From positions 348,861 to 412,860 of the forward strand of contig NZ_JH556658.1 in the NCBI RefSeq assembly GCF_000179595.2: 64,000 nt of DNA, written 5' to 3'. The position numbers were made by a program, and so were the translations under genes. Positions 2 through 30,595 of the stretch are shown in pieces. The notes under the pieces were generated by a model that was not told where the DNA came from, did not search any database, and was given only the letters and a program-made list of their open reading frames with translations. Source of the stretch: Acetivibrio cellulolyticus CD2 (GTDB taxonomy: Bacteria > Bacillota > Clostridia > Acetivibrionales > Acetivibrionaceae). The number at the start of each line of letters is the position of its first letter. Position 1 is the first letter of the stretch.

Positions 2-745
2 GAACTGTACAGTACTCCGAGTATAGAAGAATTATGTGAAAGATTGCAGTATGCAGCAAGAAATAGGTTGTTTGCAGTTATAACCGGTGATGTTGGAACA
101 GGAAAAACAACAGCGCTAAGAAAGTTAGTAGATAGCCTTGATATCAATCGTTACAAGGTAATGTACATAAGTGATTCATCTTTAACACCAAGAAATTTCT
201 ACTGGGAGGTATTAAACCAACTAGGTTGCGAAGCAAAATTTTACAGAGGAGATGCAAAACGTCAGTTAACCCGTGAGCTATCGAACCTCATAGAAACACA
301 AAAGAGGATACCAGTGATAATATCAGACGAAGCACATCTTTTATCAAGAGAAATGCTAGAGGAAGTACGGTTTCTCTTAAACTTTAAGATGGATTCATAC
401 AATCCAATGAGTTTAATTCTAGCGGGACAGAGTGAACTTAGAGATGTTCTGAAAAAACAGATATATGAGGCAATATGCCAAAGGATAGATATACGTTATC
501 ACCTTACCCCTTACGATCGGCAACAAACCGGAGAATACATCAAAAAGCATCTTGAATATGCAGGAGAAACCAGGGATATATTTACCGAGAAGGCTATTGG
601 CGAAATTTATGACTATTCTCATGGAGTAGCAAGGAAAATCAATAAAGTATGTATAGCCTGCCTGATGCACGCAGCACAAAGGCAAACAAAGTTGATAGAT
701 GATCATGTAGTAAGGCTCATAATTGAAGATGAATTCAATTGGTAA
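2..745 (+). CDS. ExeA/TniB-type AAA+ transposition ATPase, 5' end outside window
   Basis: AAA+ ATPase of the ExeA/TniB/IstB kind that assists a DDE transposase in target selection. A Walker A motif (GDVGTGKTT) lies near the start, a Walker B-like DEAH in VIISDEAHLL follows, then a sensor-type GQSEL stretch and the arginine-rich C-terminal lid (SHGVARKINKVC). The frame is open to the window edge: a TTG at 44 is a possible start, but in-frame codons from base 2 read ELYSTPSIEELCERL, which looks like the normal N-terminus of this family, so the true start is upstream. The partner transposase should lie just left of the window. Family is clear from motifs; the exact IS family is not assigned. Confidence 0.85.
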   Translation, partial: ELYSTPSIEELCERLQYAARNRLFAVITGDVGTGKTTALRKLVDSLDINRYKVMYISDSSLTPRNFYWEVLNQLGCEAKFYRGDAKRQLTRELSNLIETQKRIPVIISDEAHLLSREMLEEVRFLLNFKMDSYNPMSLILAGQSELRDVLKKQIYEAICQRIDIRYHLTPYDRQQTGEYIKKHLEYAGETRDIFTEKAIGEIYDYSHGVARKINKVCIACLMHAAQRQTKLIDDHVVRLIIEDEFNW

Positions 746-1505: not shown

Positions 1506-2477
1506 TTGAGAAACGAAGATTTAAAAAAGCTAATTGTAGATATGGGAAGCAATATTTCATGTGATTTAAGACCAATAAGATTAAAAGAGTATATACAAAA
1601 TTATCTGATAAGTAAGGGATTTAGTGAGATTCAATCATATGAACTTGTTGGGGAAGAATGTATAATTGATAAGAAAATTATGTTGCAATCTCCCACAAAT
1701 AGTGAAGTTGAAGAGGATGCGATAGGCAAATTACTATTTGACAAATTCTTTAATGGACTTAAAGATATTATTCAAAAACAAATATCAAAAAGAATTATTC
1801 CATCTTTTGAATTGATAGAATACCCACTATCTAGAGAAGTTTATATTAAGGGATTTAGCATTCCAGATGTAAACGATGATGCACTTAAAACAAAATTAAG
1901 AAATGTTTCAAGACATTTAGATACAATAAATACACTATTGTATAATCTTGAACCATACGAATTTGAGAAATTCTGTAAAAAGTTTCTTTTGTTAGTTGGT
2001 GTTAATGAAAGTAATGTAACTAAACGTTCAGGAGATGACGGCATTGACTTTTGGGGCTATGCAGACATGTTTGAATATAATTCTGAATTATTTATCTACT
2101 CAGAAATAGCAGAACAGTTGGTTGATTTTCATCAAAATGGGAAAAAGTTTAGAGTAAAAATTATTGGACAAGCTAAACGATATAAAAGCGATAATTTAAT
2201 CTCACCAAGTGAAATTCGAGAGTTATTAGGAAGCTACTATCTTGAGAGGAGTAATTCTACAAGCCTGGGTACAAATGGGAAACTTGCAGAACCTGTAGTT
2301 GGGACATTTATAACTACATCGCATTTTGAACCTGGAGCTATAAAAACAGCAGAAAGAACAGGAATTGTTTTGTTTAGTGGTTATGAGGTTTCGATTCTAT
2401 TGTTGTTAAAGGGGATAGGACTAAATTCTAATAATATATTCAATAAAGATAAATTTTTAGAGTGGTTGTCTATGTAA
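1506..2477 (+). CDS. Mrr-type restriction endonuclease
   Basis: Predicted PD-(D/E)XK nuclease of 323 residues, cutting modified or foreign DNA. The C-terminal half carries the Mrr-type catalytic block: an acidic helix (EPYEFEKFCKKF, about residue 150), then KRSGDDGIDFWG (about 178-189, catalytic Asp) and IIGQAKRYK (about 220-228, the QxK element). About 35 residues separate the last two, more than in simple Mrr proteins. The N-terminal 140 residues are not recognised and may be a DNA-sensing domain. TTG start at 1506 is supported by AGGAGG at 1494-1499. It converges on dndA, 27 bases away on the other strand. No dndFGH restriction genes are present, so this is the best candidate for the restriction arm of the Dnd locus; that link is inference. 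Confidence 0.75.
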   Translation: MRNEDLKKLIVDMGSNISCDLRPIRLKEYIQNYLISKGFSEIQSYELVGEECIIDKKIMLQSPTNSEVEEDAIGKLLFDKFFNGLKDIIQKQISKRIIPSFELIEYPLSREVYIKGFSIPDVNDDALKTKLRNVSRHLDTINTLLYNLEPYEFEKFCKKFLLLVGVNESNVTKRSGDDGIDFWGYADMFEYNSELFIYSEIAEQLVDFHQNGKKFRVKIIGQAKRYKSDNLISPSEIRELLGSYYLERSNSTSLGTNGKLAEPVVGTFITTSHFEPGAIKTAERTGIVLFSGYEVSILLLLKGIGLNSNNIFNKDKFLEWLSM

Positions 2478-2504: not shown

Positions 2505-3713
2505 CTATGCAAATTCTGTTTCTAATATCTTGATAAATTCAGCAAGAATATTGTTTGTAGTATTTTTTGTAAGTGATATCCTAACAGTATTCCTAGTGGT
2601 ATTTCCTCTATCAATAGCAGCAAGCACATAAGAAGGTTCATCAGCGGAACAAGCTGACCCTGTTGAAATTGCAACAGAATCCTTTATCTTTTTAATAAGC
2701 AACTCATTATTAACTCCTGGAATAGTGACACTAATCACTCCAGGGATTTTTTGCTCCGTGTGCCCATTAAACTCTACATTTGGATTTGCGTTTTTTAAAG
2801 CATCTTTGAACTGCTTTTCCAACTCCATTATTTTTGGCAAATAGCTATCCATATCCCTCAGAGCGATTTCAGCTGCCTTACCAAATCCAACAATATTATG
2901 AACGCAATGAGTACCAGCTCTATAACCGTCTTCTTGGCTACCTCCATGAATTAAAGCAGTCATAGCAGGCTTCAATCCATAATTACCTTTCCTGATATAG
3001 CAAGCCCCAATCCCTTTTGGACCATATAGTTTATGTGCGGAAAATGATAGAAAATCAACAGGTACGTCCTTTACATCTATCTTAACTTTCCCCAATATCT
3101 GAGTTGCATCAGAATGAAACAGTACTCCTTTTGATTTACACAAAGCAGCTAAATCAATAATAGGGTTTAGAGTTCCAATTTCATTATTGCCCCAAATTAA
3201 AGACACTAAGGTAGTTGTACTTTTAATTGCATTTTCCAAAACATCAGCTTCAACCTGTCCATATCCATTTACAGGAAGAAAACTAACCTCATAACCTCTA
3301 TCTATTTTACGCTCAACTTTCTTCCCGGGCTTCAACCTATTTCGTTCCTTATTTGTCAAAGCATCTTCATATCCAGCTAAAAATTTACATGGCCGTAGTA
3401 CTGATTTATGCTCTGTAACTGAAGTTATAATATGATTTCCTTTATTCTCGACATATTTTTTATAGTCTGCAACACCTTTAATTATCATGTTGTTACTTTC
3501 AGAAGCACAGCTTGTAAAAATAATTTCATCAGGATCAGCGTTTATAAGCCGTGCAATCTTTTCACGACTTTCTTCAACGGCTTTTCTAGCGTTTTCAGCT
3601 AAGATATAATACTTACTGGATGGGTTACCATATTCCTCAGTTAAGTAAGGCAGCATAGCATCTTTTACTTCAGGATCAATGGGGGTAGTTGCACTGTTGT
3701 CAAGATATATCAT
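2505..3713 (-). CDS. dndA: Cysteine desulfurase DndA
   Basis: PLP-dependent class V aminotransferase-fold enzyme of 402 residues that takes sulfur from cysteine to supply DNA phosphorothioation. Visible are the N-terminal YLDNSATTP, the PLP lysine in SFSAHKLYGPKG and the mobile active-site cysteine in STGSACSADEPS. An insertion around residues 115-140 (NKERNRLKPGKKVERK) is longer than in housekeeping IscS/NifS. It is the last gene of the minus-strand dnd operon and its ATG overlaps the 3' end of dndE by four bases. In many dnd loci the desulfurase is elsewhere or replaced by host IscS; here it sits in the operon. Family very sure; DndA role from context. Confidence 0.92.
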   Translation of the reverse strand: MIYLDNSATTPIDPEVKDAMLPYLTEEYGNPSSKYYILAENARKAVEESREKIARLINADPDEIIFTSCASESNNMIIKGVADYKKYVENKGNHIITSVTEHKSVLRPCKFLAGYEDALTNKERNRLKPGKKVERKIDRGYEVSFLPVNGYGQVEADVLENAIKSTTTLVSLIWGNNEIGTLNPIIDLAALCKSKGVLFHSDATQILGKVKIDVKDVPVDFLSFSAHKLYGPKGIGACYIRKGNYGLKPAMTALIHGGSQEDGYRAGTHCVHNIVGFGKAAEIALRDMDSYLPKIMELEKQFKDALKNANPNVEFNGHTEQKIPGVISVTIPGVNNELLIKKIKDSVAISTGSACSADEPSYVLAAIDRGNTTRNTVRISLTKNTTNNILAEFIKILETEFA

Positions 3714-4084
3714 ATCGCTTCACCTTCCAAACCTGCAAGATAAGAAATGAAATCTTTTGAGAACCTAAACTCATTATATAGCATTTGTGCACCTCTATCT
3801 ATATGAGCTTTAACATATTTTGGGAAGTAGTCTTCATCTTTTAAATGATCGCCACAGTGCATCTCAATTAGGCATTTAAACATAACATCATATTTACCTG
3901 TTATAGTTTGTTTATTTAAGTCTAACCCATTGGTATCTGTATCAAATTTCAAGCTTTCTACATCACCTTTCAAAGATAAAGCTATTGATAGCTTAGCAAG
4001 AGCAAAAGGTTGCAAATTAACTCTTTTAGCTAAGTCCTCGTAAATTTCCATTGTTCTTTTTGATGTTTTTAATCTAAATATCAT
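3710..4084 (-). CDS. dndE: DNA sulfur modification protein DndE
   Basis: Small (124-residue) DndE protein of the phosphorothioation complex, reported in the family to bind nicked DNA. The sequence starts MIFRLKTSKRTMEIYEDLAKR and has the helical LQPFALAKLSIALSL segment and a conserved-looking CGDHL near residue 77. The gene lies between dndD and dndA with four-base overlaps on both sides, the usual position. Recognition rests on length, context and N-terminal pattern rather than on a catalytic motif. Confidence 0.88.
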   Translation of the reverse strand: MIFRLKTSKRTMEIYEDLAKRVNLQPFALAKLSIALSLKGDVESLKFDTDTNGLDLNKQTITGKYDVMFKCLIEMHCGDHLKDEDYFPKYVKAHIDRGAQMLYNEFRFSKDFISYLAGLEGEAI

Positions 4085-6273
4085 GATACCACCTCAAAAA
4101 AGTATTTCTCTTCAACATTTGTGCAATATTCTGCATCTGAATATGTAATCAAAAATTCTTTTGAAACATATGGTTTAATTAAGGCATAGTATTCATTATT
4201 TATTTCTTCATCTGTTGAAAGAATCATCACCTGACTGCTCAAAGTAGGGAAGAAAGATGTAGTTATTCTCTCTCTATGAATGCTGTCAATTCTAGCGTAC
4301 GGAGTATCAATGACAAATGGGATTTTATTATTTGACATTTTTATCAATGCCCAGTACAAAGACATTATATATATTTGCTGTTCTCCTTTTGAAAAGCCTT
4401 TTATATCAACTTTAACTGGCAGTTCAAACATTTGATCAGCAGGCAGGTTTGATAGAACCTTTTCTAATTCGGACTTTTTACTGATATTTAATGCTTTCAA
4501 TAATGTATCAACACATTGAGTACCCATTTGACCTTCAAAAGCTTCCATTCCAATTTTAGTTAGCATTGTTTCTAAAGTGCTTACTGACTGGATATTTCTT
4601 CTATACAGTGTAACATTAAAATTACTGTCTATATCAATGCTATGAATATAGTCTTTTTTAGCAATTAGCTGTTTAAACATGAACATGAAATTTTCTTTAA
4701 CAATATCTAGCTTTTTATTAACCAATACCGGAATATAATTTGCTAAAAGCTTACTTGCATTATCACATAAAGCAATAATTGATTTTTCCTTTCTCGAACT
4801 TGCAAGAATCTCGCGTGCTTTTTTTAGTTTTGATTCAAGTTCTGATACATTTTTATATAGATTGTCTATTTGTATTTCTGTTTTTCCTTTTTCAACAAAA
4901 GCATCATTTAATTGAGCTTTAGTAATATCTATTTCCTTTGTGAAATTTAATATCATTTCATCATTTTTTTCGCAAGCTTCAAGTTTCTTTCTTAGATTTT
5001 GAGCTTTAGCGATAGATTTCTTTATTTCTGCTTTACAATTTTTAACCTGTTCAGAATTAATTTCTTCTAAATCTTTGATTAAGGTTAGTGTATCGTTTTC
5101 ATCATCATGAGATAAATAATGAATAGGCTTAAATTGGGTTAAATCAAAATCAGGTTTTATTTTATCATCTATATGTTTCGCAAGTACCGAAGAGAAAGAG
5201 TTGGTTGTATTATTATTGTGTTCATCAACTATTCTAATTTTTGAATTAGCTATTTCATCGTTAATAACTTGCTTTAAAAAGTCTTCATTTAGGGAATCCT
5301 TTATAGCAATGTATTTTTGGTACTTATTTTCCTTTATTATCTGAGATTTAACGTCTTGAACAAGGTCTTTTACCAAAAGAAACGGCAATTGATTATTTGC
5401 ATAATCCTTCAACCATTCATTTTTCTCTTCTCTAAATTTTTCTTCCTTGGAAATATCGTTTCTGTACTTCGCCACTTCTTGAGCTAATAATCCCCCGGCT
5501 TTTCTAAACTCCTTTTCCAGTTGAGCAAGTTTTTCATTAAGGTTCTTAATTTCATTTTCTATAGATATAAGTTTTTCTTTTTCGGTATCAAGCAATGTTT
5601 TATTCTTTTCAAATTCTTCGGATAAGGTTGATACATTTTTTTCATCCTCATCTAAATGTACGGAACTTCCTTTGCTGTGGATTCTTTTAAAGTTGCTATG
5701 CATTATATCGAATGTATCATAACCACAAAGCAATAGAAGTGCATCACGTAAATTCTTAGAAGAATTACCATCTAGAAAGAAGTCACTGATTTTTTCACCA
5801 TCAAAGAAGAATAGATCAAAAAGCTGTGGTGGTATTAACGTTTTTAAGAAGTTTTCAAATCTATCATGGTCTTCTTCAGATAGATTAATTCCGTTTCTTG
5901 TAACGCTGAATGATTCAACAAGTTTTTGATCTTCATATTTCCATTTTCTTATCAATTTATAGGAGGACAATTCTCTTTCTTCTTCTAAAATGAATTCAAG
6001 TGTAACGTATGTATTTACATTTTTTTTGCTTAATGAATTTTTGTTTATTAGTCTCTTAACTCTTCTATAATAGCTGGAACTAGTTGTGTCATAACCTAAT
6101 GCCAAGGGACCATATAAACCAATTTTAATGGCAGTAAATAAGGTGGTTTTCCCAGCACCATTTTTTCCACCAACCAGTATGACATTTTTATTTGTATCAT
6201 TGATCGATATATCAAATAATACTTCTCCGTCAAAGGATCCAAAATTACAAAGACCAATTCTATTTATTATCAT
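4081..6273 (-). CDS. dndD: DNA sulfur modification protein DndD, SMC-like ATPase
   Basis: SMC/Rad50-like ATPase of 730 residues that couples nucleotide hydrolysis to phosphorothioate modification, probably by nicking or remodelling DNA. Walker A is GGKNGAGKTT near residue 35. A long charged coiled-coil region fills about residues 210-510. The C-terminal lobe has the signature-like FSKGEQQIYIMSLYWAL and Walker B IPFVIDTPYARID. A FFFDGEKI segment near residue 155 is typical of DndD. Its end overlaps dndE by four bases and its start overlaps the 3' end of dndC by 14 bases, indicating translational coupling. Confidence 0.93.
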   Translation of the reverse strand: MIINRIGLCNFGSFDGEVLFDISINDTNKNVILVGGKNGAGKTTLFTAIKIGLYGPLALGYDTTSSSYYRRVKRLINKNSLSKKNVNTYVTLEFILEEERELSSYKLIRKWKYEDQKLVESFSVTRNGINLSEEDHDRFENFLKTLIPPQLFDLFFFDGEKISDFFLDGNSSKNLRDALLLLCGYDTFDIMHSNFKRIHSKGSSVHLDEDEKNVSTLSEEFEKNKTLLDTEKEKLISIENEIKNLNEKLAQLEKEFRKAGGLLAQEVAKYRNDISKEEKFREEKNEWLKDYANNQLPFLLVKDLVQDVKSQIIKENKYQKYIAIKDSLNEDFLKQVINDEIANSKIRIVDEHNNNTTNSFSSVLAKHIDDKIKPDFDLTQFKPIHYLSHDDENDTLTLIKDLEEINSEQVKNCKAEIKKSIAKAQNLRKKLEACEKNDEMILNFTKEIDITKAQLNDAFVEKGKTEIQIDNLYKNVSELESKLKKAREILASSRKEKSIIALCDNASKLLANYIPVLVNKKLDIVKENFMFMFKQLIAKKDYIHSIDIDSNFNVTLYRRNIQSVSTLETMLTKIGMEAFEGQMGTQCVDTLLKALNISKKSELEKVLSNLPADQMFELPVKVDIKGFSKGEQQIYIMSLYWALIKMSNNKIPFVIDTPYARIDSIHRERITTSFFPTLSSQVMILSTDEEINNEYYALIKPYVSKEFLITYSDAEYCTNVEEKYFFEVVS

Positions 6274-7663
6274 CTTTAATTCCTTCTTTTACGTTGTTAT
6301 AATGGAGCCAATTTTCTTTCAATATCTTTTCAAAGCTTTCTTTTAAAACAGGTTTCCTTGTAATGAACTTATTATTGTTAACTGATATAATCAGTTTACT
6401 CATTAATTCAAACTCAACGTTATATTCCTGACAATATTGTTTTAATTCTTCAATAACATCGTCATCATATATAGGCTTTTTATATTTATCCCAATCGAGT
6501 TCAATTCCTTTAACTTCTTTATATGTATCTACAAGCATTCTTCTTGAAAGGTCACCTTCATTATCCCATAATTCATCTATTTTTTTTAGTTCATCAAGAG
6601 TTATTAGCTTTATACCTGCTTCTCTTTCAACTATGTTTTCTGTTTCAAGAAGCTTTTTTAGAATTATTCTTCGACCATAAAGTGTAAATGGACCAAATCC
6701 TCTACTTCCATCACCTTTTTCATAAACATTACCATCTCTACGTTTTGTATCTCTCATGGTTGGGTCATTTCTTACACTAAGTAACCAAGTCCTAAATTCA
6801 CGTAATGGTATAAGCCAATCTTCACCACTTTCAATAAATCCTTTTAGAGATTTATCTACCTTAACCATAGTACAAACCCAACACCCAAACCTTGTATTAC
6901 CACACGTAGGCATGTCTTTGTCTTTTTTTGTATCAGTGATAGTAAATGGACATTCTCCGCCGTCTTCATTTTTGTACAATGATAGTAAGTAATTATTATC
7001 TGAACCCCATGGAGAAATACCGTTATTAGTGTTTAATAAAACATTCCATACATCTTCAGTTGTTAATTCAGTTATAGGATTATATACATAAGCATCTTCA
7101 ATAACTTCGTGCTTGTTTAAAAGTTTACCAACAATTTTTCTTCCTTCAATTCTTCTGGCCCTAGCAATACTTTCGGCTTTTCTAACACCTAAAAGAACTA
7201 CAACTCCGCCATCGGATTCAACTTTTTCTTTTATAAATCTATTTGATGGATTAATTTTTAATCTATCTGTACACCATCTAAATCCTGGTGGTTCAGGGGT
7301 AGGGTAACCAAGTCCTATTACCAGTGACCAGAATGTATCTTCCAATTTTGGGTGTACCATTTCTGCATAAATAGGTAAGTCCTGGTCTCTTGAGCTTTGT
7401 TTAATCATATCTGACATTTTCTTTAAATAGTCTATCACTATAGGATTTTCAACCATTGTGTCAGATGAAACAATATAAATGGGTTTAACCCTTTTTTCTC
7501 TAGGAAGTCTTTGCATCATTTGAAATACCAATTGACAAACGGTTGTTGAATCTTTGCCTCCACTAAAGCCGATTACCCAAGGCTTTAGATCATGAAGATA
7601 CACAGATTCGATTTCATCCAAAATATCATTTATTGAATTTTCTTCAAAATAACTATTACTCAT
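6260..7663 (-). CDS. dndC: DNA sulfur modification protein DndC, PAPS-reductase-like
   Basis: Iron-sulfur, PP-loop ATP pyrophosphatase of the PAPS reductase family, 467 residues. It activates the DNA backbone and receives sulfur mobilised by DndA. Visible motifs are the PP-loop GFSGGKDSTT (about 32-41), the PAPS-reductase-like GFRWCTDRLKI, and a cysteine cluster (CGNTRFGCWVCTMV) that fits a 4Fe-4S cluster with one more cysteine upstream (GGECPF). It follows dndB by 13 bases. Confidence 0.95.
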   Translation of the reverse strand: MSNSYFEENSINDILDEIESVYLHDLKPWVIGFSGGKDSTTVCQLVFQMMQRLPREKRVKPIYIVSSDTMVENPIVIDYLKKMSDMIKQSSRDQDLPIYAEMVHPKLEDTFWSLVIGLGYPTPEPPGFRWCTDRLKINPSNRFIKEKVESDGGVVVLLGVRKAESIARARRIEGRKIVGKLLNKHEVIEDAYVYNPITELTTEDVWNVLLNTNNGISPWGSDNNYLLSLYKNEDGGECPFTITDTKKDKDMPTCGNTRFGCWVCTMVKVDKSLKGFIESGEDWLIPLREFRTWLLSVRNDPTMRDTKRRDGNVYEKGDGSRGFGPFTLYGRRIILKKLLETENIVEREAGIKLITLDELKKIDELWDNEGDLSRRMLVDTYKEVKGIELDWDKYKKPIYDDDVIEELKQYCQEYNVEFELMSKLIISVNNNKFITRKPVLKESFEKILKENWLHYNNVKEGIKDDNK

Positions 7664-7676
7664 TTGTTTTATCCAC

Positions 7677-8753
7677 CTAATAAATTAATGTGTCTTCCAG
7701 TGTTTTTTCTTCAGAATTCAATTCATAACCTAATAACTCTTTTATCTTGTTATATGTAAGTTTTATAGCTGTTGTATTTTTATTTATTTTGCCATTTGAT
7801 GTTATTACTCGGCCTGTCCAATCTTTAACATTTGATCTACTCCAGTCAATTTTATTAAGACAGCTGATTTTATCAGAATAATCTTTGATTCCATTTTGAT
7901 AAAAGTAATTTCCCAAATGTCCTAAAGCAATTAAAACTACACCATGAGCATTTATAAAGTTCTTTCTGCATTCATAAGCACTAAGCTTTTTAGACTTTAC
8001 CTGATTCCATTCATAAATGGTGTTGCACAGTAAATTCCAATACTCTAAAACAAACTTCTCATCATTTTTACTTAAAATATCTCCACGTTTTTTACTTATA
8101 ATACAGCTTATAGAACTATAAATGTTTGTTAAAGTGAAAAGCTTAGGTGAAAACTTTGATAAATTATCGGCTTCTTTATCTGTAAATTGCTTTAATAATG
8201 GGATTTCATCCAATACCTTTTTAACCAACAATGATAGTTGGTCTCTACTGTCGTATAAAATACCAATTGATTTTGTAGTGTTTTTAGCATGCTTATTTAA
8301 GTCCGCAAACATTTGCTGACTTCTTACTAGGCCTTTATCCTTAAAAAATACAACCGATATTGTTTCCTTTTCAAGTTCAGGATTTAATTTAAGAGCTTCT
8401 TCTATTGCTGCTCTTCGATGTTGACCGTCATTTATAAGGAATTTAGCGTCCATGGAAATATCAAGTTTACCCAAATCCATATCCATATATGATTCAAAAG
8501 ACATTTCTCCATCAACTGATGCAGTGAGGGAAGAGAAAACATAGTCTTCCGGATTATCAATAATGTAATCAGTGATTTCGGGAATTCTTGTTGTATTTAA
8601 TGTTCTTTGAGCCCTATATTCAGGAGGTAAATCAATTTCAGAAGTCTGAAATATTTTAGAAATAACTCGTAAAGGGCACATTGCTACATAATATTCTTTT
8701 TTTGCTTGTATCCCTTTAATTGCAGGGAATGAAAAAGTGAATTTTGAAGTCAT
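7677..8753 (-). CDS. dndB: DndB, DGQHR-domain protein
   Basis: First gene of the dnd operon, 358 residues. DndB is dispensable for sulfur insertion in characterised systems but shapes site selectivity and represses the operon; a DNA-binding repressor role has been described in Salmonella. The diagnostic DGQHR motif is present as INDGQHRRAAIEEAL (about 107-121). The ATG lies just below a short palindrome and a sigma-A promoter, so autoregulation is plausible here. The rest of the protein is helical without other motifs I can name. Confidence 0.9.
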   Translation of the reverse strand: MTSKFTFSFPAIKGIQAKKEYYVAMCPLRVISKIFQTSEIDLPPEYRAQRTLNTTRIPEITDYIIDNPEDYVFSSLTASVDGEMSFESYMDMDLGKLDISMDAKFLINDGQHRRAAIEEALKLNPELEKETISVVFFKDKGLVRSQQMFADLNKHAKNTTKSIGILYDSRDQLSLLVKKVLDEIPLLKQFTDKEADNLSKFSPKLFTLTNIYSSISCIISKKRGDILSKNDEKFVLEYWNLLCNTIYEWNQVKSKKLSAYECRKNFINAHGVVLIALGHLGNYFYQNGIKDYSDKISCLNKIDWSRSNVKDWTGRVITSNGKINKNTTAIKLTYNKIKELLGYELNSEEKTLEDTLIY

Positions 8754-9331: not shown

Positions 9332-10987
9332 ATGCTTACTGTTGAACAGTATATTTTACAAATGAAGAAAAAGGACAAGATTGATGAATTTAATTTCCAG
9401 AACCATGCTGAAAATATGACTACTGTAATTAAGTATGTTATGGATTACTTTAATAACTACCTTAATCCTGAAGCTTATGATTATGAAAATATTAAAGTCG
9501 AACAAACTCTTTTGAAAATAAGTGAAGAAATTGGAAACTCATATCCTAAAAGTAAAGATTTTATACTTCGGTATTATAAAGAATATAAAAGTCGTATAGA
9601 TCGGACATTAAAAAAGTACATATCTGATTTGAGATATTATGAGTTATTTTACTGCGAAGAAGACTATGAAAACGCAGTTAATTCATTTTGTAATAGCCCA
9701 AAAGTAAAAGGAACAGGTGTAGAAAATTATAAAGATGATTTGGTATTACTAGTGCAAGAGATTAAAGATAATGAAACTGAAAAGCCTTCCTTCTCAAGCT
9801 ATATATACCTTGATGATTTGTTAATAGGCTGGGTTAAGAGTATATATATAGAATATAAAGTAAACGTAGTTCGATTTGTAGAAGACTATATGTGGAAATA
9901 TAATGAACGGTATATTGAAAGAAAATATGATAGCAAATCTGAAACGCATTATCGCATTAATAGATATAATCACAGATACAACAATAATCCCTTTTCAATT
10001 GATGAAGTGTACCAAGAGAATTGTAACCGTCCTTTTATCGAAGGGAAAAAAGGTGAACTGGAAATGCTCATGATGTACAATTGGATATTTGATAATGTAG
10101 AAGATTCGGATTACTGGTCTGAGTATGTTAATCTTTGTGTTTCAACTGGAAGAGTCAAAATAGTAAAAAACATTAATGCTCTGTTTCCTGTTAAAGTAAA
10201 AGATATTGCTTACCCGCCAGATGTTCAGTGCAGTAAATCATTTATCGAAACATATAATGGTTTCATTAATAATGATCCAGGAACATCATATATTCTCCGG
10301 CTATCATATAATAAGGACAATGATATTATATGGAAGGATGAGAAGGAATTATCGAACGTAATAATTAATTTGCATGAAGCTTTTTCAAAATACCGACCTC
10401 CTGCTGTTATAGAGATTTTTCCGCCGATAGTATCAAACAATTATGGGGAAGAAGATTTTTTTCAAAAATATAATATATTAGAAAAAGCCATGAAAAAATA
10501 TACTGATTTGAAAATCGTTATGATCAATGCTCCTGAGAGGCACTATTCAAAACCCAAATACTTGATGCAGACAGTTGAAGATATATTAAATATAAGAAAG
10601 ACAGTCAAAGAGAGAAAATATCATATGAAACTTGTAATTGATATTCCTTCGCTTTTTAAAAAGAAATGCTATGGGCATGAATTAGAAGAGAAATTGGACA
10701 AGTTAAGTGAAATAAGAAATTGCATATTAGGAATTCACTTGTCTAACATTCATGATGTTTATAGCATTTTTAGCGAAATAAGAAAAGAAGACGATGTATA
10801 CTTAAATACATATGGTTACCATAAGTATTCGGATTTTCTTGGAGGTATCTCTGCACTTTTCAATGATAATATATGCCGTTATTTTGTTCCGGAAAGTATA
10901 GTCAGCAGAGAGGATCTTGAAGAGCTTGTTGATGTCCTTCTCAGGGGTGGATTCTCATTTTGCGTAGAGGAGCAAAAGTATGTATAA
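9332..10987 (+). CDS. Unrecognised 551-residue protein, possible TIM-barrel C-terminus
   Basis: I do not recognise this family. The N-terminal 270 residues are helical and rich in charged and tyrosine residues. From about residue 310 alternating strands and helices appear (SYILRLSYNKD, PAVIEIFPPIV, LKIVMINAPERHY, MKLVIDIPSLF, CILGIHLSNIHD, VYLNTYGYH), a rhythm like a TIM barrel of the sugar-isomerase/endonuclease IV type, with histidines and acids at strand ends. No signal peptide or membrane segment is seen. ATG at 9332 has GAGGAGG at ideal distance. Its last eight bases overlap the next gene, so the two are translationally coupled. Position between dnd and a reverse transcriptase suggests a defence role; that is inference. 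Confidence 0.6.
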   Translation: MLTVEQYILQMKKKDKIDEFNFQNHAENMTTVIKYVMDYFNNYLNPEAYDYENIKVEQTLLKISEEIGNSYPKSKDFILRYYKEYKSRIDRTLKKYISDLRYYELFYCEEDYENAVNSFCNSPKVKGTGVENYKDDLVLLVQEIKDNETEKPSFSSYIYLDDLLIGWVKSIYIEYKVNVVRFVEDYMWKYNERYIERKYDSKSETHYRINRYNHRYNNNPFSIDEVYQENCNRPFIEGKKGELEMLMMYNWIFDNVEDSDYWSEYVNLCVSTGRVKIVKNINALFPVKVKDIAYPPDVQCSKSFIETYNGFINNDPGTSYILRLSYNKDNDIIWKDEKELSNVIINLHEAFSKYRPPAVIEIFPPIVSNNYGEEDFFQKYNILEKAMKKYTDLKIVMINAPERHYSKPKYLMQTVEDILNIRKTVKERKYHMKLVIDIPSLFKKKCYGHELEEKLDKLSEIRNCILGIHLSNIHDVYSIFSEIRKEDDVYLNTYGYHKYSDFLGGISALFNDNICRYFVPESIVSREDLEELVDVLLRGGFSFCVEEQKYV

Positions 10988-12284
10988 TGAAGATGATTTT
11001 CTTAATGAAAGGGAAAAACTATACAATGAGGTATGGAATGAGCCAATGACGACAGTTGCAAAGCGTTATGGCTTATCTGATAATGGATTGCGAAAAAGGT
11101 GCATTAAGCTTGAAATACCTTTACCGCCTGTGGGGCATTGGGCAAAACTCCAAGCAGGTAAAGAATCGGTTCCGAAGCCTAAATTGCCACCTATAAAAAT
11201 AATTAAGCAATCTATAAATATAGAGGATAAAAAACATATTATCGAAATTAAAGATATTTCAAACATACCAGACAGCAAGCTTGAGGTTTTGGATGGAATG
11301 GAGCTTCTGACTCTGGAATCAAAAGAAAGGTTTATTCAATGGTGTGAAAAAATTCAAGTTCCTAAACAAATTGATAATTATAACAAATTAATAATTGAAT
11401 ATCAAAAAGAAAATCAATATAGAAAAGCAAGAGATGAAGAACATAAATTCCATGATATTTTTAGATACACCGATTTCTTTTGGTCTATCCAGCATAAAAC
11501 GCCATATCGCGAAAATATAGCTGTTTTGCCGATATCAGTCTCAGAAAAACAAATCAACCGGGCACTGAGAATAATAGATACTTTGATCAATTTGGTTAGT
11601 GAACTAGGTGGAAAGATAATTATTAATCATGGTAATAAGGACAATGCCATATTCATGGTTTTTAATCATGAATTTTCTTTTGAAATGAGTGAAATCATGA
11701 TTAAGCAAAGATCTAAATTGCTGGATTATAAGGAAAGTAGTATATATACAGAATTCAAACCAATGTATGAAAAGATGTATAGTGGGTTGCTGAAAATTGA
11801 TTTTGTTGAGCAGCTTAACAATCAGTCTAGAGAAAAATGCTACAAAAGGCTATGCTTTCAAGATTCTTCAAAAGAACTGCTTGAAAAGCAACTGGGTGAA
11901 ATATTCATATCTTTGTTCAAAATTGCAAATGAAGCGTCGATTGCTAGATATATTTCACAGCGGGAATATGAAAAAAGAAGGAAGGAAGAGAAGCGGCTTT
12001 ACGAGATTGAAGCAGAGAACTTAAAAGAAAAACAAAGAATAGAAGCGAAAAACCAACAACGAATTAAATTTAATCAGGATATAGATCGCCATATTGAAGA
12101 ATGGTTTAAATATCAGAATCTAAAGAAATATATCAATGACCTAAATGAGTTACTGCCAACGATAGCTGATCCGGAATCAAAGGAAATAATCGAGGACTAT
12201 CTTTTGCTCTTAAGAGATAAAGCAGAGAAAGTTAATCCTATTAATGATATTATAAAAGAAATAAAATTGCTTCAAGATGAATAA
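10980..12284 (+). CDS. Unrecognised 434-residue protein with N-terminal HTH-like module and coiled coil
   Basis: The first 65 residues contain a recurring helix-turn-helix-like module (REKLYNEVWNEP..TVAKRYGLSDNGLRKRCIKLEIPLPPVGHWAKLQAGK) that I have seen at the start of otherwise uncharacterised bacterial proteins; it looks DNA-binding. Residues about 100-250 are mixed. Residues 320-430 are a long, lysine/glutamate-rich helix (REYEKRRKEEKRLYEIEAENLKEK) likely to form a coiled coil. Catalytic motifs are not evident. The start overlaps the previous gene by eight bases, so the pair is one functional unit, perhaps a sensor plus an effector. Function unknown. Confidence 0.6.
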   Translation: MYNEDDFLNEREKLYNEVWNEPMTTVAKRYGLSDNGLRKRCIKLEIPLPPVGHWAKLQAGKESVPKPKLPPIKIIKQSINIEDKKHIIEIKDISNIPDSKLEVLDGMELLTLESKERFIQWCEKIQVPKQIDNYNKLIIEYQKENQYRKARDEEHKFHDIFRYTDFFWSIQHKTPYRENIAVLPISVSEKQINRALRIIDTLINLVSELGGKIIINHGNKDNAIFMVFNHEFSFEMSEIMIKQRSKLLDYKESSIYTEFKPMYEKMYSGLLKIDFVEQLNNQSREKCYKRLCFQDSSKELLEKQLGEIFISLFKIANEASIARYISQREYEKRRKEEKRLYEIEAENLKEKQRIEAKNQQRIKFNQDIDRHIEEWFKYQNLKKYINDLNELLPTIADPESKEIIEDYLLLLRDKAEKVNPINDIIKEIKLLQDE

Positions 12285-12464
12285 AATTAAAAATAGAGTA
12301 AGTGCAGAGAAGTCATACCCATAGATTATAACAAAGAAATAAACCAGAGCTCTGATGGGCTATAAAATGGTTTTGCATATACATATACAATCTATTTGAC
12401 ACTAAACCTGGAATCGTGACTTAATAATTCAAACGGTAGTGTTTATAACTAATTATTCTGTTTT

Positions 12465-12493
12465 TTGACAATTATTCGTTATAGTGATATAAT
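12465..12493 (+). promoter_or_regulatory. Consensus sigma-A promoter for ncRNA / reverse transcriptase
   Basis: TTGACA (12465-12470) and TATAAT (12488-12493) with a 17-bp spacer: a perfect housekeeping promoter. It predicts a start near 12500, about 315 bases before the reverse transcriptase ATG. Such a strong promoter driving a long untranslated stretch suggests that the leader itself is a functional RNA. Confidence 0.8.
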
Positions 12494-12499
12494 AAAATT

Positions 12500-12800
12500 G
12501 CCTTATGTTATGACATAGGGGACGAGGATTGTTGTCAACTCCTGAAGGTAATTATTTACTAATTCTTTCAGAGCTGAAACCAGTTTGATAATTACGATTA
12601 TCCACATAATTGTTTCTATTAAACTCCTTTCCTTATATTCTATTATACTATAGATATATATTGAACGTATAAAGGATAGCTGGTTCAAACACAAAAGTAC
12701 TTATGTACTTACTTCTCATGGTTAGTAACAAATTAATACCAAGTTGGGTTATACCTATCAGCAAGGAGATGCTATCCCTCGCACTGATAGGTATTACGCT
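12500..12800 (+). ncRNA. Candidate structured ncRNA partner of the reverse transcriptase
   Basis: About 300 nt with no plus-strand ORF of note between a perfect promoter and the reverse transcriptase. Hairpins seen are CCTTATGT/ACATAGGG with a four-base loop right at the predicted 5' end (12501-12520), AAGTAC/GTACTT (12695-12710) and a perfect 11-bp stem ATACCTATCAG/CTGATAGGTAT (12751-12761 with 12784-12794) just before the ribosome binding site, without the T-run of a terminator. A further ACCAG/CTGGT pairing (about 12579 and 12680) may close a long middle domain. Size and position resemble the ncRNA upstream of DRT2-type reverse transcriptases. Homology to that class is not shown. Confidence 0.5.
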
Positions 12801-12814
12801 ATATTGAGGTGAAA

Positions 12815-14170
12815 ATGACTCTTCAAGAATGGGTGCAAAAAAACCAAAAAGCAAAGAGATATGCACATTTTGATAAAAGAGTATCTTTAAAAAAGATTTT
12901 GACTTATATTAGTGAGCCGGATAATATAAGTCATCATGGGTTCTATCCATTTATTCATTATACAAAAGTATTTAATAAGTATAGTAATGGTAAAATAAAG
13001 AAGAAAGAAAGAGAGCTTAATTACTCTGCACATATTGATAGATACATTTATTCTTATTATGGATTTTTACTAAATCAAAAATATAATGATAGAGTTTTTC
13101 AAGATGGGCTAAATGATGTTTCTTTAGCTTACAGAGATAATTTAGGAAAGAATAATATTCACTTTGCAAAAAGTGCTGTAGATAAAATCCGAGAAATAGG
13201 AAAATGTTATATTATCGTAGGCGATTTTACAAACTTTTTTGATCAGTTAGATCATAAGTACCTCAAAGATATGCTATGTGATTTATTACAAGTCAAATTG
13301 TTGCCAGATGATTATTATGCTGTATTTAAAAATATAACGAAGTACTCAAAATGGGAATTGATTGACATCCTAAATTATTATGGACTAGCTGTTAATGAAA
13401 AAGGAATAAAAGAACTAAATGAAAAACATGTTGTTTTTACTTTAAAGGAATTCAAAAGATTAAAAAAGATAGATCAAAACAATCCCAAACCTAATAAAAA
13501 TAATTATGGAATTCCGCAAGGCTCAGCAATTAGTGCGGTATTATCAAATATTTATATGCTTAAATGCGATAAAATCCTCAATGATTATGTAAAAAAATAT
13601 AATGGACTATACATGCGATATAGCGATGATTTTATTATTGTATTACCTAAGATAACAGAAGACGTATTTAAGGATCAATTTCAATATATAAACACAACTA
13701 TAAAATCAATACCTTACCTTATATTACAACCAGATAAGACTCAAGTTTTCTGCTATACGGATACTTGTTTAATTAGTTGCAATACTTTAGTAATGCCAGA
13801 TATTCAGAATAGACAAAATAGAATTAATTATCTAGGGTTTACATTTGACGGTAAAGAAGTTACGATAAGAGATAAAACGATTACAAAATATTACTATCGA
13901 ATGTATAGAAAGCTAAAAACAATAGTAAAAAATAATGGAATAACAAAAAATGGGAACCGGATTAGTTGCGAAAATGTTTATTATAAATATTCTAGTAAAG
14001 GCGCTCGGATAATAAAAGAAAATGGACAACAAAAGAATAGAGGAAACTTTATTACATATGTGCAAAGAGCTGAAAAAATTTGGGGACCTGAAGAACCTAT
14101 TAATAGATCCACTAAAAATCATTTGTTAAAAATTCGAAGACAGTTGGATAAATTAAAACAAAATGGCTAA
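12815..14170 (+). CDS. Stand-alone reverse transcriptase, DRT/UG-like
   Basis: Reverse transcriptase of about 451 residues. An N-terminal HFDKRVS precedes the palm. Motif A is YIIVGDFTNFFDQLDH, motif B is YGIPQGSAISAVLSNIYM, and the catalytic box is YMRYSDDFIIV; a thumb-like C-terminus follows INYLGFTF. There is no maturase or HNH domain and no intron structure is evident, so it is not a group II intron protein. Single-gene architecture, a defence-island setting and a promoter-driven non-coding leader favour an antiviral DRT-type enzyme. I cannot assign the class from memory. ATG at 12815 is chosen over the GTG at 12809 because GAGGTG (12806-12811) then serves as its ribosome binding site. 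Confidence 0.85.
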   Translation: MTLQEWVQKNQKAKRYAHFDKRVSLKKILTYISEPDNISHHGFYPFIHYTKVFNKYSNGKIKKKERELNYSAHIDRYIYSYYGFLLNQKYNDRVFQDGLNDVSLAYRDNLGKNNIHFAKSAVDKIREIGKCYIIVGDFTNFFDQLDHKYLKDMLCDLLQVKLLPDDYYAVFKNITKYSKWELIDILNYYGLAVNEKGIKELNEKHVVFTLKEFKRLKKIDQNNPKPNKNNYGIPQGSAISAVLSNIYMLKCDKILNDYVKKYNGLYMRYSDDFIIVLPKITEDVFKDQFQYINTTIKSIPYLILQPDKTQVFCYTDTCLISCNTLVMPDIQNRQNRINYLGFTFDGKEVTIRDKTITKYYYRMYRKLKTIVKNNGITKNGNRISCENVYYKYSSKGARIIKENGQQKNRGNFITYVQRAEKIWGPEEPINRSTKNHLLKIRRQLDKLKQNG

Positions 14171-14185
14171 ATTGATGTATAAATG

Positions 14186-14228
14186 TCTGGTAGCTCATCA
14201 ACATTATGTCATGTTGGCAGCTACCAGA
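14186..14228 (+). terminator. Long hairpin between reverse transcriptase and argS
   Basis: TCTGGTAGCT (14186-14195) pairs perfectly with AGCTACCAGA (14219-14228), and CAACAT/ATGTTG pair inside the loop. The plus strand then reads TATTTTGC, a weak T-run. It lies between two convergent genes, so it may terminate both or protect the 3' end of the reverse transcriptase message. Confidence 0.55.
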
Positions 14229-14242
14229 TATTTTGCAATTGC

Positions 14243-15940
14243 CTACATTCTTTCAGGGCATTCTATTCCTAATAAGGACATTCCGTTTTTTACAACAATT
14301 TTTACAGCTTTGCAAAGAGCTATCCTGGAATACTTTAATTCATCTTCACTGCTTAAAATGGGGTTGAAATGATAAAATTTGTTATAGCTTTGAACAAGAT
14401 CAATAAGGTACTTTGAAATAATCGAAGGTTCATATTCATTTGAAGCACTTTCTACAATGTCAGGAAATTTTGCTAAAAGTTTTACAACATCATATGAATC
14501 TCCTTCTGCTAAAAGGCTGTAGTTTATACCCAAATCTTCTGAGTTTTCTACCTTTTTTATAACACTACAGATCCTAGCGTAAGTATACTGAATGTAACAA
14601 GAAGTCTCTCCCTCAAAGTTTAATACCTTTTCCCAAGCAAAGACTGAGTCCTTTATTCTTTTGTTCTTCAGTGCACTGAATTTTATAGCTCCGATCCCAA
14701 CCATTCTGGAAACTTCCTCTTTGCCTTCAAGTTCAGGGTTTTTTTCTTCTATAATTGCCAGTGCTTTTGACACGGCTTCGCTCAAAACATCATCCAAAAA
14801 TACAGCCGTCCCTTGTCGTGTACCCATAGAGCTACTTTCAAGACTTATCATTCCATTAGCAACATGAACAAGGTTTTCAGCCCATGGATATCCCATTTTT
14901 TCTATAACCTTAAAAAGCTGCTGGAAATGTAAATTCTGCTGTGTAGCAACACAATATAAAATTTTATGGAAATCATATGTTTCCTTTCGATAAAATATTG
15001 CTGCCAAGTCACGAGTTGCATACAAAGTAGCACCATCGCTTCGCAAAATAATGCAAGGTGGCATATTAAATTCAGATAAGTCAACAATATGTGCTCCTTG
15101 GCTTTCCTGAAGCAAGCCTTTCTCTTTTAGTTCATTAATAACGGGCTCCATCTTATCATTAAAAAAGCTCTCTCCATTCCATGAATCAAAGTCTATTTTC
15201 AAGACACCAAGTATTCTTTTAAACTCAGAAATACTGATATCCCTAAACCACTTCCATAGCTTTACGTATTCATCTTTTCCATCTTCTATAGCTTTAAATG
15301 CAGCCCTTCCTTCATCATCCAAGCTCTTATCTATTTTTGCTTCTTTGTGAAATTTAACGTAAATCTTAACAAGCTCTTTAATAGGATTTTTCTCAATTTC
15401 AGCGTTGTTACCCCATTTTTTATAAGCAACAATCAATTTTCCGAATTGTGTTCCCCAATCTCCTAAATGGTTAATTCCAACACAATTATATCCTAGGAAT
15501 TTGAAGATTTTATAAAGTGAATTTCCTATAACAGTTGTAGGTAAATGGCCTATATGAAAAGGTTTTGCAATATTTGTTGCACAATAATCGAGGACTATGT
15601 TTTTTCCTTTACCAACATCAGAACTACCAAAGTTTTCTCCCTGCTCTTGAATCTTCTTAAGGACAATAGTAGTGAAATTAACCTTCTCTGCATAAAAGTT
15701 AAGATATCCACCAATGACACAGATTTTTTCTATACACTCAGGCTTAGTTATTTTATCTGCCAACTCTCCGGCAATTATATGGGGTGCTTTTCTTAGCGTT
15801 TTGGAGAGCTGAAAGCATGGAAAGGAATAGTCGCCCATATCATCATTGGGAGGTATTTCAATCAATCTTTCTATTTCATTTTTATCTAAATTCACATGAT
15901 TTAAAATAGCGTTTATAACTTCTTCTTTTATTGTTTTCAT
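14243..15940 (-). CDS. argS: Arginyl-tRNA synthetase
   Basis: Class I aminoacyl-tRNA synthetase, 565 residues, charging tRNA-Arg in the cytoplasm. The N-terminal tRNA-D-loop domain precedes the HIGH signature (AKPFHIGHLPTT, about residue 124). The GTRQGT segment fits the later catalytic loop, and the DALR-type anticodon domain with the usual SLL/ERM C-terminus is intact. It is preceded by an arginine-type T-box leader, so its expression should rise when tRNA-Arg is uncharged. As a housekeeping gene it marks the right border of the defence island. Confidence 0.96.
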   Translation of the reverse strand: MKTIKEEVINAILNHVNLDKNEIERLIEIPPNDDMGDYSFPCFQLSKTLRKAPHIIAGELADKITKPECIEKICVIGGYLNFYAEKVNFTTIVLKKIQEQGENFGSSDVGKGKNIVLDYCATNIAKPFHIGHLPTTVIGNSLYKIFKFLGYNCVGINHLGDWGTQFGKLIVAYKKWGNNAEIEKNPIKELVKIYVKFHKEAKIDKSLDDEGRAAFKAIEDGKDEYVKLWKWFRDISISEFKRILGVLKIDFDSWNGESFFNDKMEPVINELKEKGLLQESQGAHIVDLSEFNMPPCIILRSDGATLYATRDLAAIFYRKETYDFHKILYCVATQQNLHFQQLFKVIEKMGYPWAENLVHVANGMISLESSSMGTRQGTAVFLDDVLSEAVSKALAIIEEKNPELEGKEEVSRMVGIGAIKFSALKNKRIKDSVFAWEKVLNFEGETSCYIQYTYARICSVIKKVENSEDLGINYSLLAEGDSYDVVKLLAKFPDIVESASNEYEPSIISKYLIDLVQSYNKFYHFNPILSSEDELKYSRIALCKAVKIVVKNGMSLLGIECPERM

Positions 15941-15974: not shown

Positions 15975-16200
15975 TAAAAAACTCCTATCTCAAATAGAGA
16001 CGGAGTTGCCGTGGTACCACTCTGATTGGTGTATATACTAATAGACACCCACTCATATCTTTATCGCAGATATACGTTTCCCATACTATTATTTCAAGGA
16101 AATTCTCCCTGGCTCTCTTCATAATTTTCTTGTTATCAGGCTTACACCAGACCCTGACTCGCTTAAACAATAAAAACTATTACTCTCCAGATCATCGAAT
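15975..16200 (-). promoter_or_regulatory. T-box leader of argS
   Basis: On the minus strand the T-box core GTGGTACCAC (16020-16011) is followed by a terminator of AACTCC..TCTC paired with GAGA..GGAGTT (16007-15980) and a run of Ts. Upstream, to about 16200, is a stem I-like segment (AGCGAGTCAGGG, GGTGTAAGCCTG). Uncharged tRNA pairing with the T-box bulge should favour the antiterminator. The specifier codon was not located with certainty; arginine is inferred from argS. Confidence 0.9.
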
Positions 16201-16415
16201 TACAATATTGATAATTTTAAATATTATATTGCAAACTTCGATAATAATCAATATAAATTTTGCAGCTTATTCGAAATACACAGCAACAATAAAGAACTGT
16301 ATAAACCAAATTAATCGTAAATCTATCATTGTAGAAAGTACAGCAGCCTTCTTTTTATTTATAAGATCATCTAATTTCATTTTATCACCATGGAAAAAAT
16401 TTGGTTAGTGATTGA

Positions 16416-19846: not shown

Positions 19847-19867
19847 TTAAACAACAAAATATTGAAG
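19821..19867. promoter_or_regulatory. Pair of NrdR-like boxes
   Basis: Box 1 (19821-19836, ACACAATATATTGTAT) fits the NrdR consensus acaCwAtATaTwGtgt at 15 of 16 positions. Box 2 (19852-19867) keeps the core CwAnATaTwG. The boxes are 31 bp apart, three helical turns, which is the spacing typical of NrdR pairs. NrdR is the ATP/dATP-sensing repressor of ribonucleotide reductase genes; its own gene is not in the window. Confidence 0.65.
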
Positions 19868-20040
19868 TGATACTGGTGCTGTACATAAAGTACGGCTTAA
19901 AAGAGAAACAGGTGAAAATCCTGTACGGTCCCGCCGCTGTAATGGGGAGAATTTTCACAGAGTCCACTGGAGTTATCCGGGAAGGAGTGGAAATTCTATG
20001 AACCAGAGTCAGAAGACCTGCCTGTATTATGCACTGCAAC
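19868..20040 (+). promoter_or_regulatory. Cobalamin riboswitch of nrdDG
   Basis: B12 riboswitch core features are present in order: the purine-rich AAAGAGAAACAGGTGAAAATCCTG region, the CGCCGCTGTAA core, the GTCCACTGG segment and the near-invariant AGAAGACCTGCCTG at the 3' side. A terminator follows 50 bp later. Adenosylcobalamin binding should switch off the downstream B12-independent reductase. Confidence 0.93.
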
Positions 20041-29896: not shown

Positions 29897-30004
29897 TATC
29901 TTTGTGAATCAAAGTTCTCTAATGTAAGATAAAGCTTAAAAATATATTGATAAAACTGAGCCTCTAGTATATTATATAAGTTGGTTGAAAACTAAATATA
30001 TAAA

Positions 30005-30175
30005 ACAGGTGCCTATACAGTTCTAAATAGGTGAAAAGGAAAGTCGGGTAAAGCCCGCGCGGTCACGCCGCTGTAAAAGTGGAGTTCTCCATTTATGCCA
30101 CTGGGAAACTGGGAAGGTTTGGAGAATGATGATGCTTGAGCCAGAAGACCTGCCTGTTTTGTTACACCAATTACT
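30005..30175 (+). promoter_or_regulatory. Cobalamin riboswitch 1 of the cob operon
   Basis: All core blocks are visible: ACAGGTGCC at the start, GTGAAAAGGAAAGTCGGGTAAAGCCCG, the CGCCGCTGTAA core, ATGCCACTGGGAAACTGGGAAGG and the terminal AGAAGACCTGCCTG. It is followed by its own terminator at 30232-30264, with no gene before the second riboswitch. Confidence 0.94.
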
Positions 30176-30264: not shown

Positions 30265-30357
30265 ATTTGTATAAGAACATAATTATTTGTTAAGAATTAA
30301 TCAGAATGAAGAGTAAAAATGTTAACATGAATATTGCTAAAAATCAAATACTATTTT

Positions 30358-30558
30358 AAGTGTTCTCCTAGGCGTATGGCCTTGGAGAAAGGATAGGGGA
30401 ATCGGGTGCAAATCCCGAACGGAACCGCCGCTGTAAGCACTTAAGCGTATGCTCGTCGATGAAAGTCGGTCACTGGGAAACTGGGAAGGCAGAGCATATG
30501 CTGCAGGAGAAATATTCCTATAAGTGTAAGTCAGAAGACCTGCTTGAATTTGACTTAC
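30358..30558 (+). promoter_or_regulatory. Cobalamin riboswitch 2 of the cob operon
   Basis: Second B12 element, 183 bp after the first: GGAGAAAGGATAGGGGAATCGGGTGCAAATCCCG in two blocks, CGCCGCTGTAA core, GTCACTGGGAAACTGGGAAGG, terminal CAGAAGACCTGCTTG. A peripheral stem (AGCGTATGCTC with GAGCATATGCT) is longer than in riboswitch 1. Directly upstream of cbiQ. Confidence 0.94.
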
Positions 30559-30595
30559 CCACTGATCGGTGGAGGGACTGAATTTTTACAGAAAT

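Follow-up and report, generated by a model that had tools for sequence, protein, structure and literature searches.

We analysed a 64,000-nt stretch of the Acetivibrio cellulolyticus CD2 genome (the window; all positions refer to it), in which a reverse transcriptase (RT) gene follows a promoter and a structured leader. The RT gene lies on the plus strand at 12815–14170, starts with the ATG at 12815 and encodes 451 amino acids, with a YSDD catalytic box, read from the sequence, at residues 269–272 (13619–13630, plus strand). At E 0.01 the only Pfam domain of the protein was RVT_1, in agreement with the original prediction of a free-standing YSDD enzyme devoid of maturase or HNH parts. Among the PADLOC families the best was Drt2 (474 bits, E=1.3e-142), far ahead of the runner-up Drt9 (76 bits). 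The best NCBIfam family was the Drt2 equivalog NF041746, at 374.4 bits and below its cut-off of 390. At E 1e-5, three different PDB sequences matched, of which one is labelled RNA-dependent DNA polymerase and the others Drt2; the match to 9lje had E 2.3e-56 with 33% identity over the aligned part. We take 9c0i and 9lje (labelled Drt2 or polymerase) to be the DRT2 of Klebsiella pneumoniae. The length of Klebsiella DRT2 given in PMC12039810 agrees with the 425 residues of two of the PDB matches. Judged from these profile and database matches, the RT is a DRT2/UG2 enzyme, which supports the DRT2-like class that had been proposed from the letters alone.

An origin from a retron or a group II intron, with an unrelated structured leader, was considered, as both profiles match the RT weakly. 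The scores, 72 bits for the group II maturase RT profile (cut-off 300) and 42 bits for retron_St85_RT (cut-off 235), are far below the cut-offs and below that of Drt2 (374), and the RT is preceded by an RT-6, pseudoknotted RNA. Such a placement, named beforehand as evidence against a DRT2-type system, was not seen in the profile scores; we regard it as extremely improbable.

A conserved pseudoknotted RNA upstream of the RT gene

A promoter on the plus strand (12465–12493) consists of TTGACA (12465–12470) and TATAAT (12488–12493) separated by 17 nt. It scored 12/12, the only such score among the 10 promoter sites in 12200–14400, and the weaker sites in this interval are at chance level (14.8 per shuffle). 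The perfect promoter of the original prediction was thereby recovered, and its description of the leader as hairpin-rich and free of plus-strand open frames also held. The interval 12500–12806 folds with z = −4.08 (0 of 100 shuffles equal it), and from 12300 to the RT frame the plus strand has a single stop-to-stop frame of at least 40 codons (44 codons, 12673–12807).

The 5′ end of the non-coding RNA (ncRNA) and the start of the predicted template match the Rfam family RT-6 (RF03027) at 12499–12570 on the plus strand (57.3 bits; gathering cut-off 46.7). This 75-position model spans the 5′ hairpin SL1 (12501–12520, plus strand), which was obtained by folding and is paired in the model, as well as the first ATTG copy and the antisense −35 element described below. 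At E 0.001, RT-6 was found in 7 of the 391 genomes of the class, with scores that exceed the cut-off in three. The four strongest matches, including that of the window, sit upstream of DRT2 RTs. The three weakest (L015–L017, 27–30 bits) lack an RT within ∼1.5 kb to either side (1.2 kb for one flank of L016) and were excluded. A literature search on RT-6 yielded no paper; the present assignment would tie this family to a mechanism.

We aligned the 3′ part of the RNA, the scaffold, from seven loci; an initial alignment also included L010 and L027, which proved too divergent and were omitted, and L042 and L045 were obtained only afterwards. The scored structure, which was picked out visually in the window and related loci and is hence biased towards them, has three helices on the plus strand. 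Helix 1 is a pseudoknot formed by GGATAGC (12674–12680) and GCTATCC (12771–12777), in which four of seven pairs changed on both sides and all cells are paired. Helix 2 (12681–12741) pairs TGGT (12681–12684) with ACCA (12738–12741), with one of four pairs changed on both sides and 92.9% of the cells paired. Helix 3 is the 11-bp hairpin at 12751–12794 (12751–12761/12784–12794), the loop of which contains the second pseudoknot strand. Noted previously as a perfect stem before the start codon, it also covaries (7 of 11 pairs changed on both sides).

Over the 22 pairs, 98.7% of the cells are paired and 12 pairs changed on both sides; each of these values was reached by 0 of 500 shuffles of the seven loci, which leave the kinship among the rows in place. 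When the partners were offset by 1–3 columns, pairing in this alignment fell to 32–51%. One of the five covariation measures, the number of further pair types, was matched by 9 of 500 shuffles. We concluded that the upstream RNA is conserved, with a covarying pseudoknot and 11-bp stem; a lack of conserved upstream structure in homologues, the other outcome named beforehand as refuting, was not seen over the seven loci.

The 10-bp stem that had been placed after the gene is also present, as a hairpin at 14186–14228 on the plus strand (14186–14195/14219–14228; fold z = −7.08). It probably terminates transcription between the RT and the gene that converges on it. A terminator scan that needs a short loop and a T-run listed none at this hairpin.

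A predicted 132-nt template unit that completes a promoter at its junctions

In Klebsiella DRT2, a template between two ACA motifs is copied into tandem cDNA, the junctions of which form a promoter with 17-bp spacing; the antisense stop-free frame is neo (PMC11100668, PMC12039810). ACA-bracketed templates have been studied or inferred for 42 close homologues of that system (PMC12039810). The 2024 preprint describes Neo as hard to annotate in divergent clades and raises alternative mechanisms there (PMC11100668).

In the window the predicted template is not bracketed by ACA but by ATTG. A scan for repeat-bounded units placed the predicted template at 12528–12659 on the plus strand (132 nt, equal to 44 codons), with one ATTG at its start (12528–12531) and the other, the alignment site, immediately 3′ of it (12660–12663). 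The predicted cDNA promoter lies on the minus strand, with the −35 TTGACA at 12533–12538 and the −10 TATAAT at 12642–12647. On the chromosome these elements are in the wrong order, TATAAT (12647–12642) preceding TTGACA (12538–12533). Joining the antisense 132-nt unit head to tail yields TTGACA-N17-TATAAT at each junction (12/12), and the 17-bp spacing exists only over the junction. The −10 is contained in a template hairpin (12639–12654, plus strand), found at this place in all six loci folded, L034, L042 and L045 being left out of this folding.

The three frames of the antisense unit hold 0, 10 and 3 stops. The minus-strand frame that had been reported as stop-free at 12503–12694 is open on the chromosome at 12506–12700, with a stop at 12503–12505. 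The check proposed for it, whether the copied unit is a multiple of three without stops, gave a predicted unit of 132 nt that is stop-free. The ncRNA has the features expected of the proposed template, a triplet unit without stops that creates a junction promoter, and would be reverse transcribed. The minus-strand hint of the original prediction is hereby made exact, and the unit limits, the junction promoter and the clade-specific handle (the short repeat bounding the template) are added here.

Since the frame is open on the chromosome, it might be a linear antisense small gene (12506–12700) that overlaps the ncRNA by accident. However, with the −10 preceding the −35 on the minus strand, these elements give no chromosomal promoter; the 17-bp spacing is reached only on head-to-tail joining, and this arrangement recurs in relatives. 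Such a gene is highly improbable. Nor is the locus likely to be a decayed or inactive DRT2 copy. The RT is the sole match in its own 6.16 Mb genome and had no relative at E 1e-40 in two other genomes of the genus, which would suit decay. On the other hand, the RT is intact with its YSDD box, both promoters are perfect, the unit is open and the pseudoknot is paired, and we consider inactivity very unlikely.

Next, we asked whether such a unit could arise by chance. The 450 nt upstream of 31 DRT2 RTs were scanned for repeats of at least three bases, 90–200 nt apart, that create a promoter with a spacer of 16–18; the scan was blind to length modulo three and to stops. In 18 of the 31 loci the top-ranked unit had no stop and a length divisible by three. 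The same outcome was obtained in 116 of 1860 shuffles (6%; binomial tail 1.9e-14) and, for tiles of the window, which are largely coding DNA, in 182 of 842 (22%; binomial tail 1.1e-5), these tails treating related loci as independent. None of 1000 shuffles of the window sequence reached the window score with an open frame. Seven of the 842 tiles equalled this score with an open top unit, and therefore the relatives carry much of the weight. Short handles are weak evidence singly because a three-base run is frequent by chance (a matching run in a 17-base spacer is expected for 20% of pairs with three bases and for 5% with four).

The window's clade consists of 16 tree rows (support 96/94) and L004, a partial RT that was counted for units and is absent from the trees; some of these 17 loci come from phage or viral contigs. 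L005 is from a Clostridia bacterium and L008 from a phage of Clostridioides. Including the window, 16 of the 17 have a first-ranked stop-free triplet unit (3e-10 against the tile rate). Before the counts, L001, L011–L014, L033 and L046 were dropped as duplicates of loci in the set, and L003 because it and L004 are the C- and N-terminal parts, respectively, of one locus. With a single protein as query, genome contigs yielded one relative and viral contigs none; an alignment used as query yielded six viral contigs. As a fresh test, four loci fetched later were scanned with the same settings, and all four gave such a unit: two with ATTG and the frame that reads the −35 as Leu-Thr (see below), and two with GTA or CGTATT and the Asp frame. 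A later tree placed them in the matching clades.

Signals for translation were also searched. On the minus strand we observed a possible neo ribosome-binding site, AGGAG (12624–12628), and an in-frame ATG as a possible start (12605–12607), 16 nt past AGGAG, which is a long spacing. The corresponding distance is 9 nt in both L042 and L045; L005 and L008 lack an in-frame ATG within the stretch searched. This search used preset periods and is hence no test of the period. The translation start is the weakest step of the proposed mechanism. In L007, L043 and L044 a possible neo ribosome-binding site lies 32 nt past the −10, the leader being longer than in the window's subclade.

These poor start signals in the window, the missing ATG in L005 and L008, and the fact that DRT9 and DRT10 make non-coding repeats (PMC12632851) would suit a DRT2-like RT and RNA whose product acts as DNA or RNA, the antisense frame being open by chance or composition. 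Against this, shuffling the unit leaves an open frame with a probability of 0.025 in the window and of 0.022–0.344 for the 11 other open units scored in its clade, the top unit has triplet length in all but one of the 17 clade loci, and the open frame is constant within each subclade. We consider a product acting as nucleic acid unlikely.

Handle and reading frame across the RT tree

We placed the predicted handles and frames on a tree of 35 RTs, rooted at the midpoint with no outgroup, in which 23 rows carry a frame label. The ACA handle occurs in L028–L030, the nearest relatives of the Klebsiella-type RT (58.5–61.7% identity). ATTG was found in the window, L009, L005, L006, L004, L042 and L045, and ATT in L002; whole or partial GTAT in L007, L008, L043, L044 and L032; TATT and TAT in L010 and L027, respectively; and others elsewhere. 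As read from these predicted units, the handle follows the tree, with GTAT marking a sister group of the ATTG loci. A reported TAA had raised the possibility that L002 is a broken copy; this was rejected, the TAA being the natural end of its RT.

The window's subclade reads the −35 as TTG-ACA (Leu-Thr), while the other scored loci with open units read it as nTT-GAC (Asp). A single change accounts for this frame phase on the tree (support 93/99, and 95% of 200 bootstrap trees; none of 500 shuffles needed so few changes), with the label of Klebsiella assumed, that of L037 taken from its second-ranked unit and that of L034 from its least-stopped frame. Within each subclade the open frame is identical. 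The two frames are mutually exclusive: the Asp frame has 1–3 stops across the ten open Leu-Thr units, and the Leu-Thr frame has 3–8 across the six Asp units found in the window's clade. The open units of the window's clade would encode hydrophobic products (GRAVY 0.32 to 1.07 for 12 units, with no control set). The main split of the tree (100/97) separates the window's side from the Klebsiella side.

L034, which belongs to the same clade and has an intact RT and scaffold, breaks the pattern. The first-ranked unit of this locus, at 166 nt, is not divisible by three; the one bounded by ATTG, 147 nt long, contains one stop and a poor −10 and lacks both a ribosome-binding site and an in-frame ATG. 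A CTTATTG handle was tried for this locus and rejected (166 nt, stops in all frames), and L034 was kept as an exception. The template within the 450 bases upstream of this RT contains AT-rich near-repeats and gives the impression of decay or expansion.

Of the 31 loci, another twelve have no such unit at first rank, and none of them belongs to the window's clade. They include plasmids of lactobacillus, leuconostoc and enterococcus (L021, L022, L024 and L026) and L036 from the same phylum as the window; the remaining ones are L019, L023, L025, L031, L038, L040 and L041. An open unit appears at second or third rank in L023, L024 and L031. The first-ranked unit that places L037 among the 18 has a poor −10, TCGAAT, and the second-ranked 129-nt unit of this locus looks better. 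In L023, a Nitratidesulfovibrio plasmid, the second-ranked unit is open, 144 nt long and bounded by TTGA, with a 16-bp junction spacer; its product is hydrophilic (GRAVY −1.03), unlike those of the other open units scored.

From these data we consider it likely that DRT2 gene writing does not depend on ACA. Like an alignment region, the short direct repeat that serves as jump signal would drift from clade to clade (ACA, ATTG, GTAT and others), and the 17-bp junction promoter and the triplet unit would be fixed. The window's clade would have moved the whole repeat gene to another frame of the same promoter DNA, so that the residues spelled by the promoter would not be what makes Neo toxic.

Proposed mechanism and relation to known systems

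We propose, with a probability of about 0.86, that the locus is an anti-phage system of the DRT2 type, in a clade distant from that of Klebsiella, and writes a 132-nt repeat gene by means of an ATTG handle. A single promoter would drive both an RNA of ∼300 nt and the RT, which would grip the RNA through the 3′ pseudoknot scaffold. The template would be copied from the second ATTG towards the first; the cDNA end complementary to the first copy could then re-pair with the second, and the 132-nt unit would be copied repeatedly. The exact jump nucleotide is not needed, because any jump inside the repeat yields the same product. When the product is turned double-stranded, each junction would complete TTGACA-N17-TATAAT, and the antisense transcript would encode a stop-free repeat of 44 mostly hydrophobic amino acids, the toxicity of which may arrest the infected cell. 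The RT class, the conserved RNA, the unit, the junction promoter and the open frame of this scheme are seen in the sequence. The RNA limits, copying, jumping, second strand, translation, toxicity and phage trigger are modelled on Klebsiella DRT2.

With the K. pneumoniae DRT2 (UG2), as described in PMC12039810 and PMC11100668, the window shares the RT class, an upstream ncRNA with a 5′ hairpin, template and 3′ pseudoknot, an antisense unit that is stop-free and a multiple of three, and the TTGACA/TATAAT junction promoter with 17-bp spacing. The two differ in several respects: RT identity is 33%, the predicted jump signal is a clade-specific short repeat (ATTG versus ACA), the unit is 132 nt versus 120, and the −10 of the window sits in its own template hairpin. 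The frame relative to the −35 in the Klebsiella-like L028–L030 is unlike that of the window. Inspection by eye showed a basal stem (AAATGT/ACATTT) at the template edges in L030 and no complementary flanks in the window's clade. Gene writing by DRT2 is known; the ATTG handle and the other frame relative to the promoter, both predicted here, would be new. Neither neo in this clade nor an ATTG handle was described in the portion of the literature searched; the final journal version of the Tang paper, outside that search, may describe ACA-free handles.

DRT9 and DRT10 (the latter being RT_UG17) are likewise class 2 UG RTs that make repetitive cDNA from an ncRNA, but their products are homopolymer or tandem-repeat DNA and not a gene (PMC12632851). 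The Drt9 and RT_UG17 profiles score far lower on the window RT. Repeat addition via an alignment region would be shared with telomerase, a comparison drawn in PMC12039810; the second ATTG would be that region, and the unit is 132 nt versus 4–8 in telomerase.

The DRT2 mechanism would be readable from sequence on both sides of the main tree split, with a different jump signal. The combination of a short repeat, a 17-bp junction promoter and a triplet unit may serve as a rule for finding hidden genes, the clade handles would provide natural variants for studying RT jumping, and the natural frame change bears on the action of Neo.

Further observations concern the neighbouring genes. A complete DNA phosphorothioation cluster, dndB-dndC-dndD-dndE-dndA, occupies 2505–8753 on the minus strand, with a Mrr-type nuclease (1506–2477, plus strand) and an AAA protein (44–745, plus strand) beyond it. 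The ncRNA promoter is 3.7 kb from the dnd cluster, and this proximity is compatible with a defence island. Between the dnd cluster and the DRT2 RNA lie two overlapping plus-strand genes (9332–12284; 551 and 434 amino acids) with no Pfam, NCBIfam or PADLOC match at E 0.01, which are possibly an uncharacterised defence pair. On the other side of the RT, the gene at 14243–15940 looks by eye like argS and is preceded by a T-box (15993–16204, minus strand). Farther away, tandem cobalamin riboswitches were found at 29990–30171 and 30341–30561 on the plus strand, and a third at 19857–20039.
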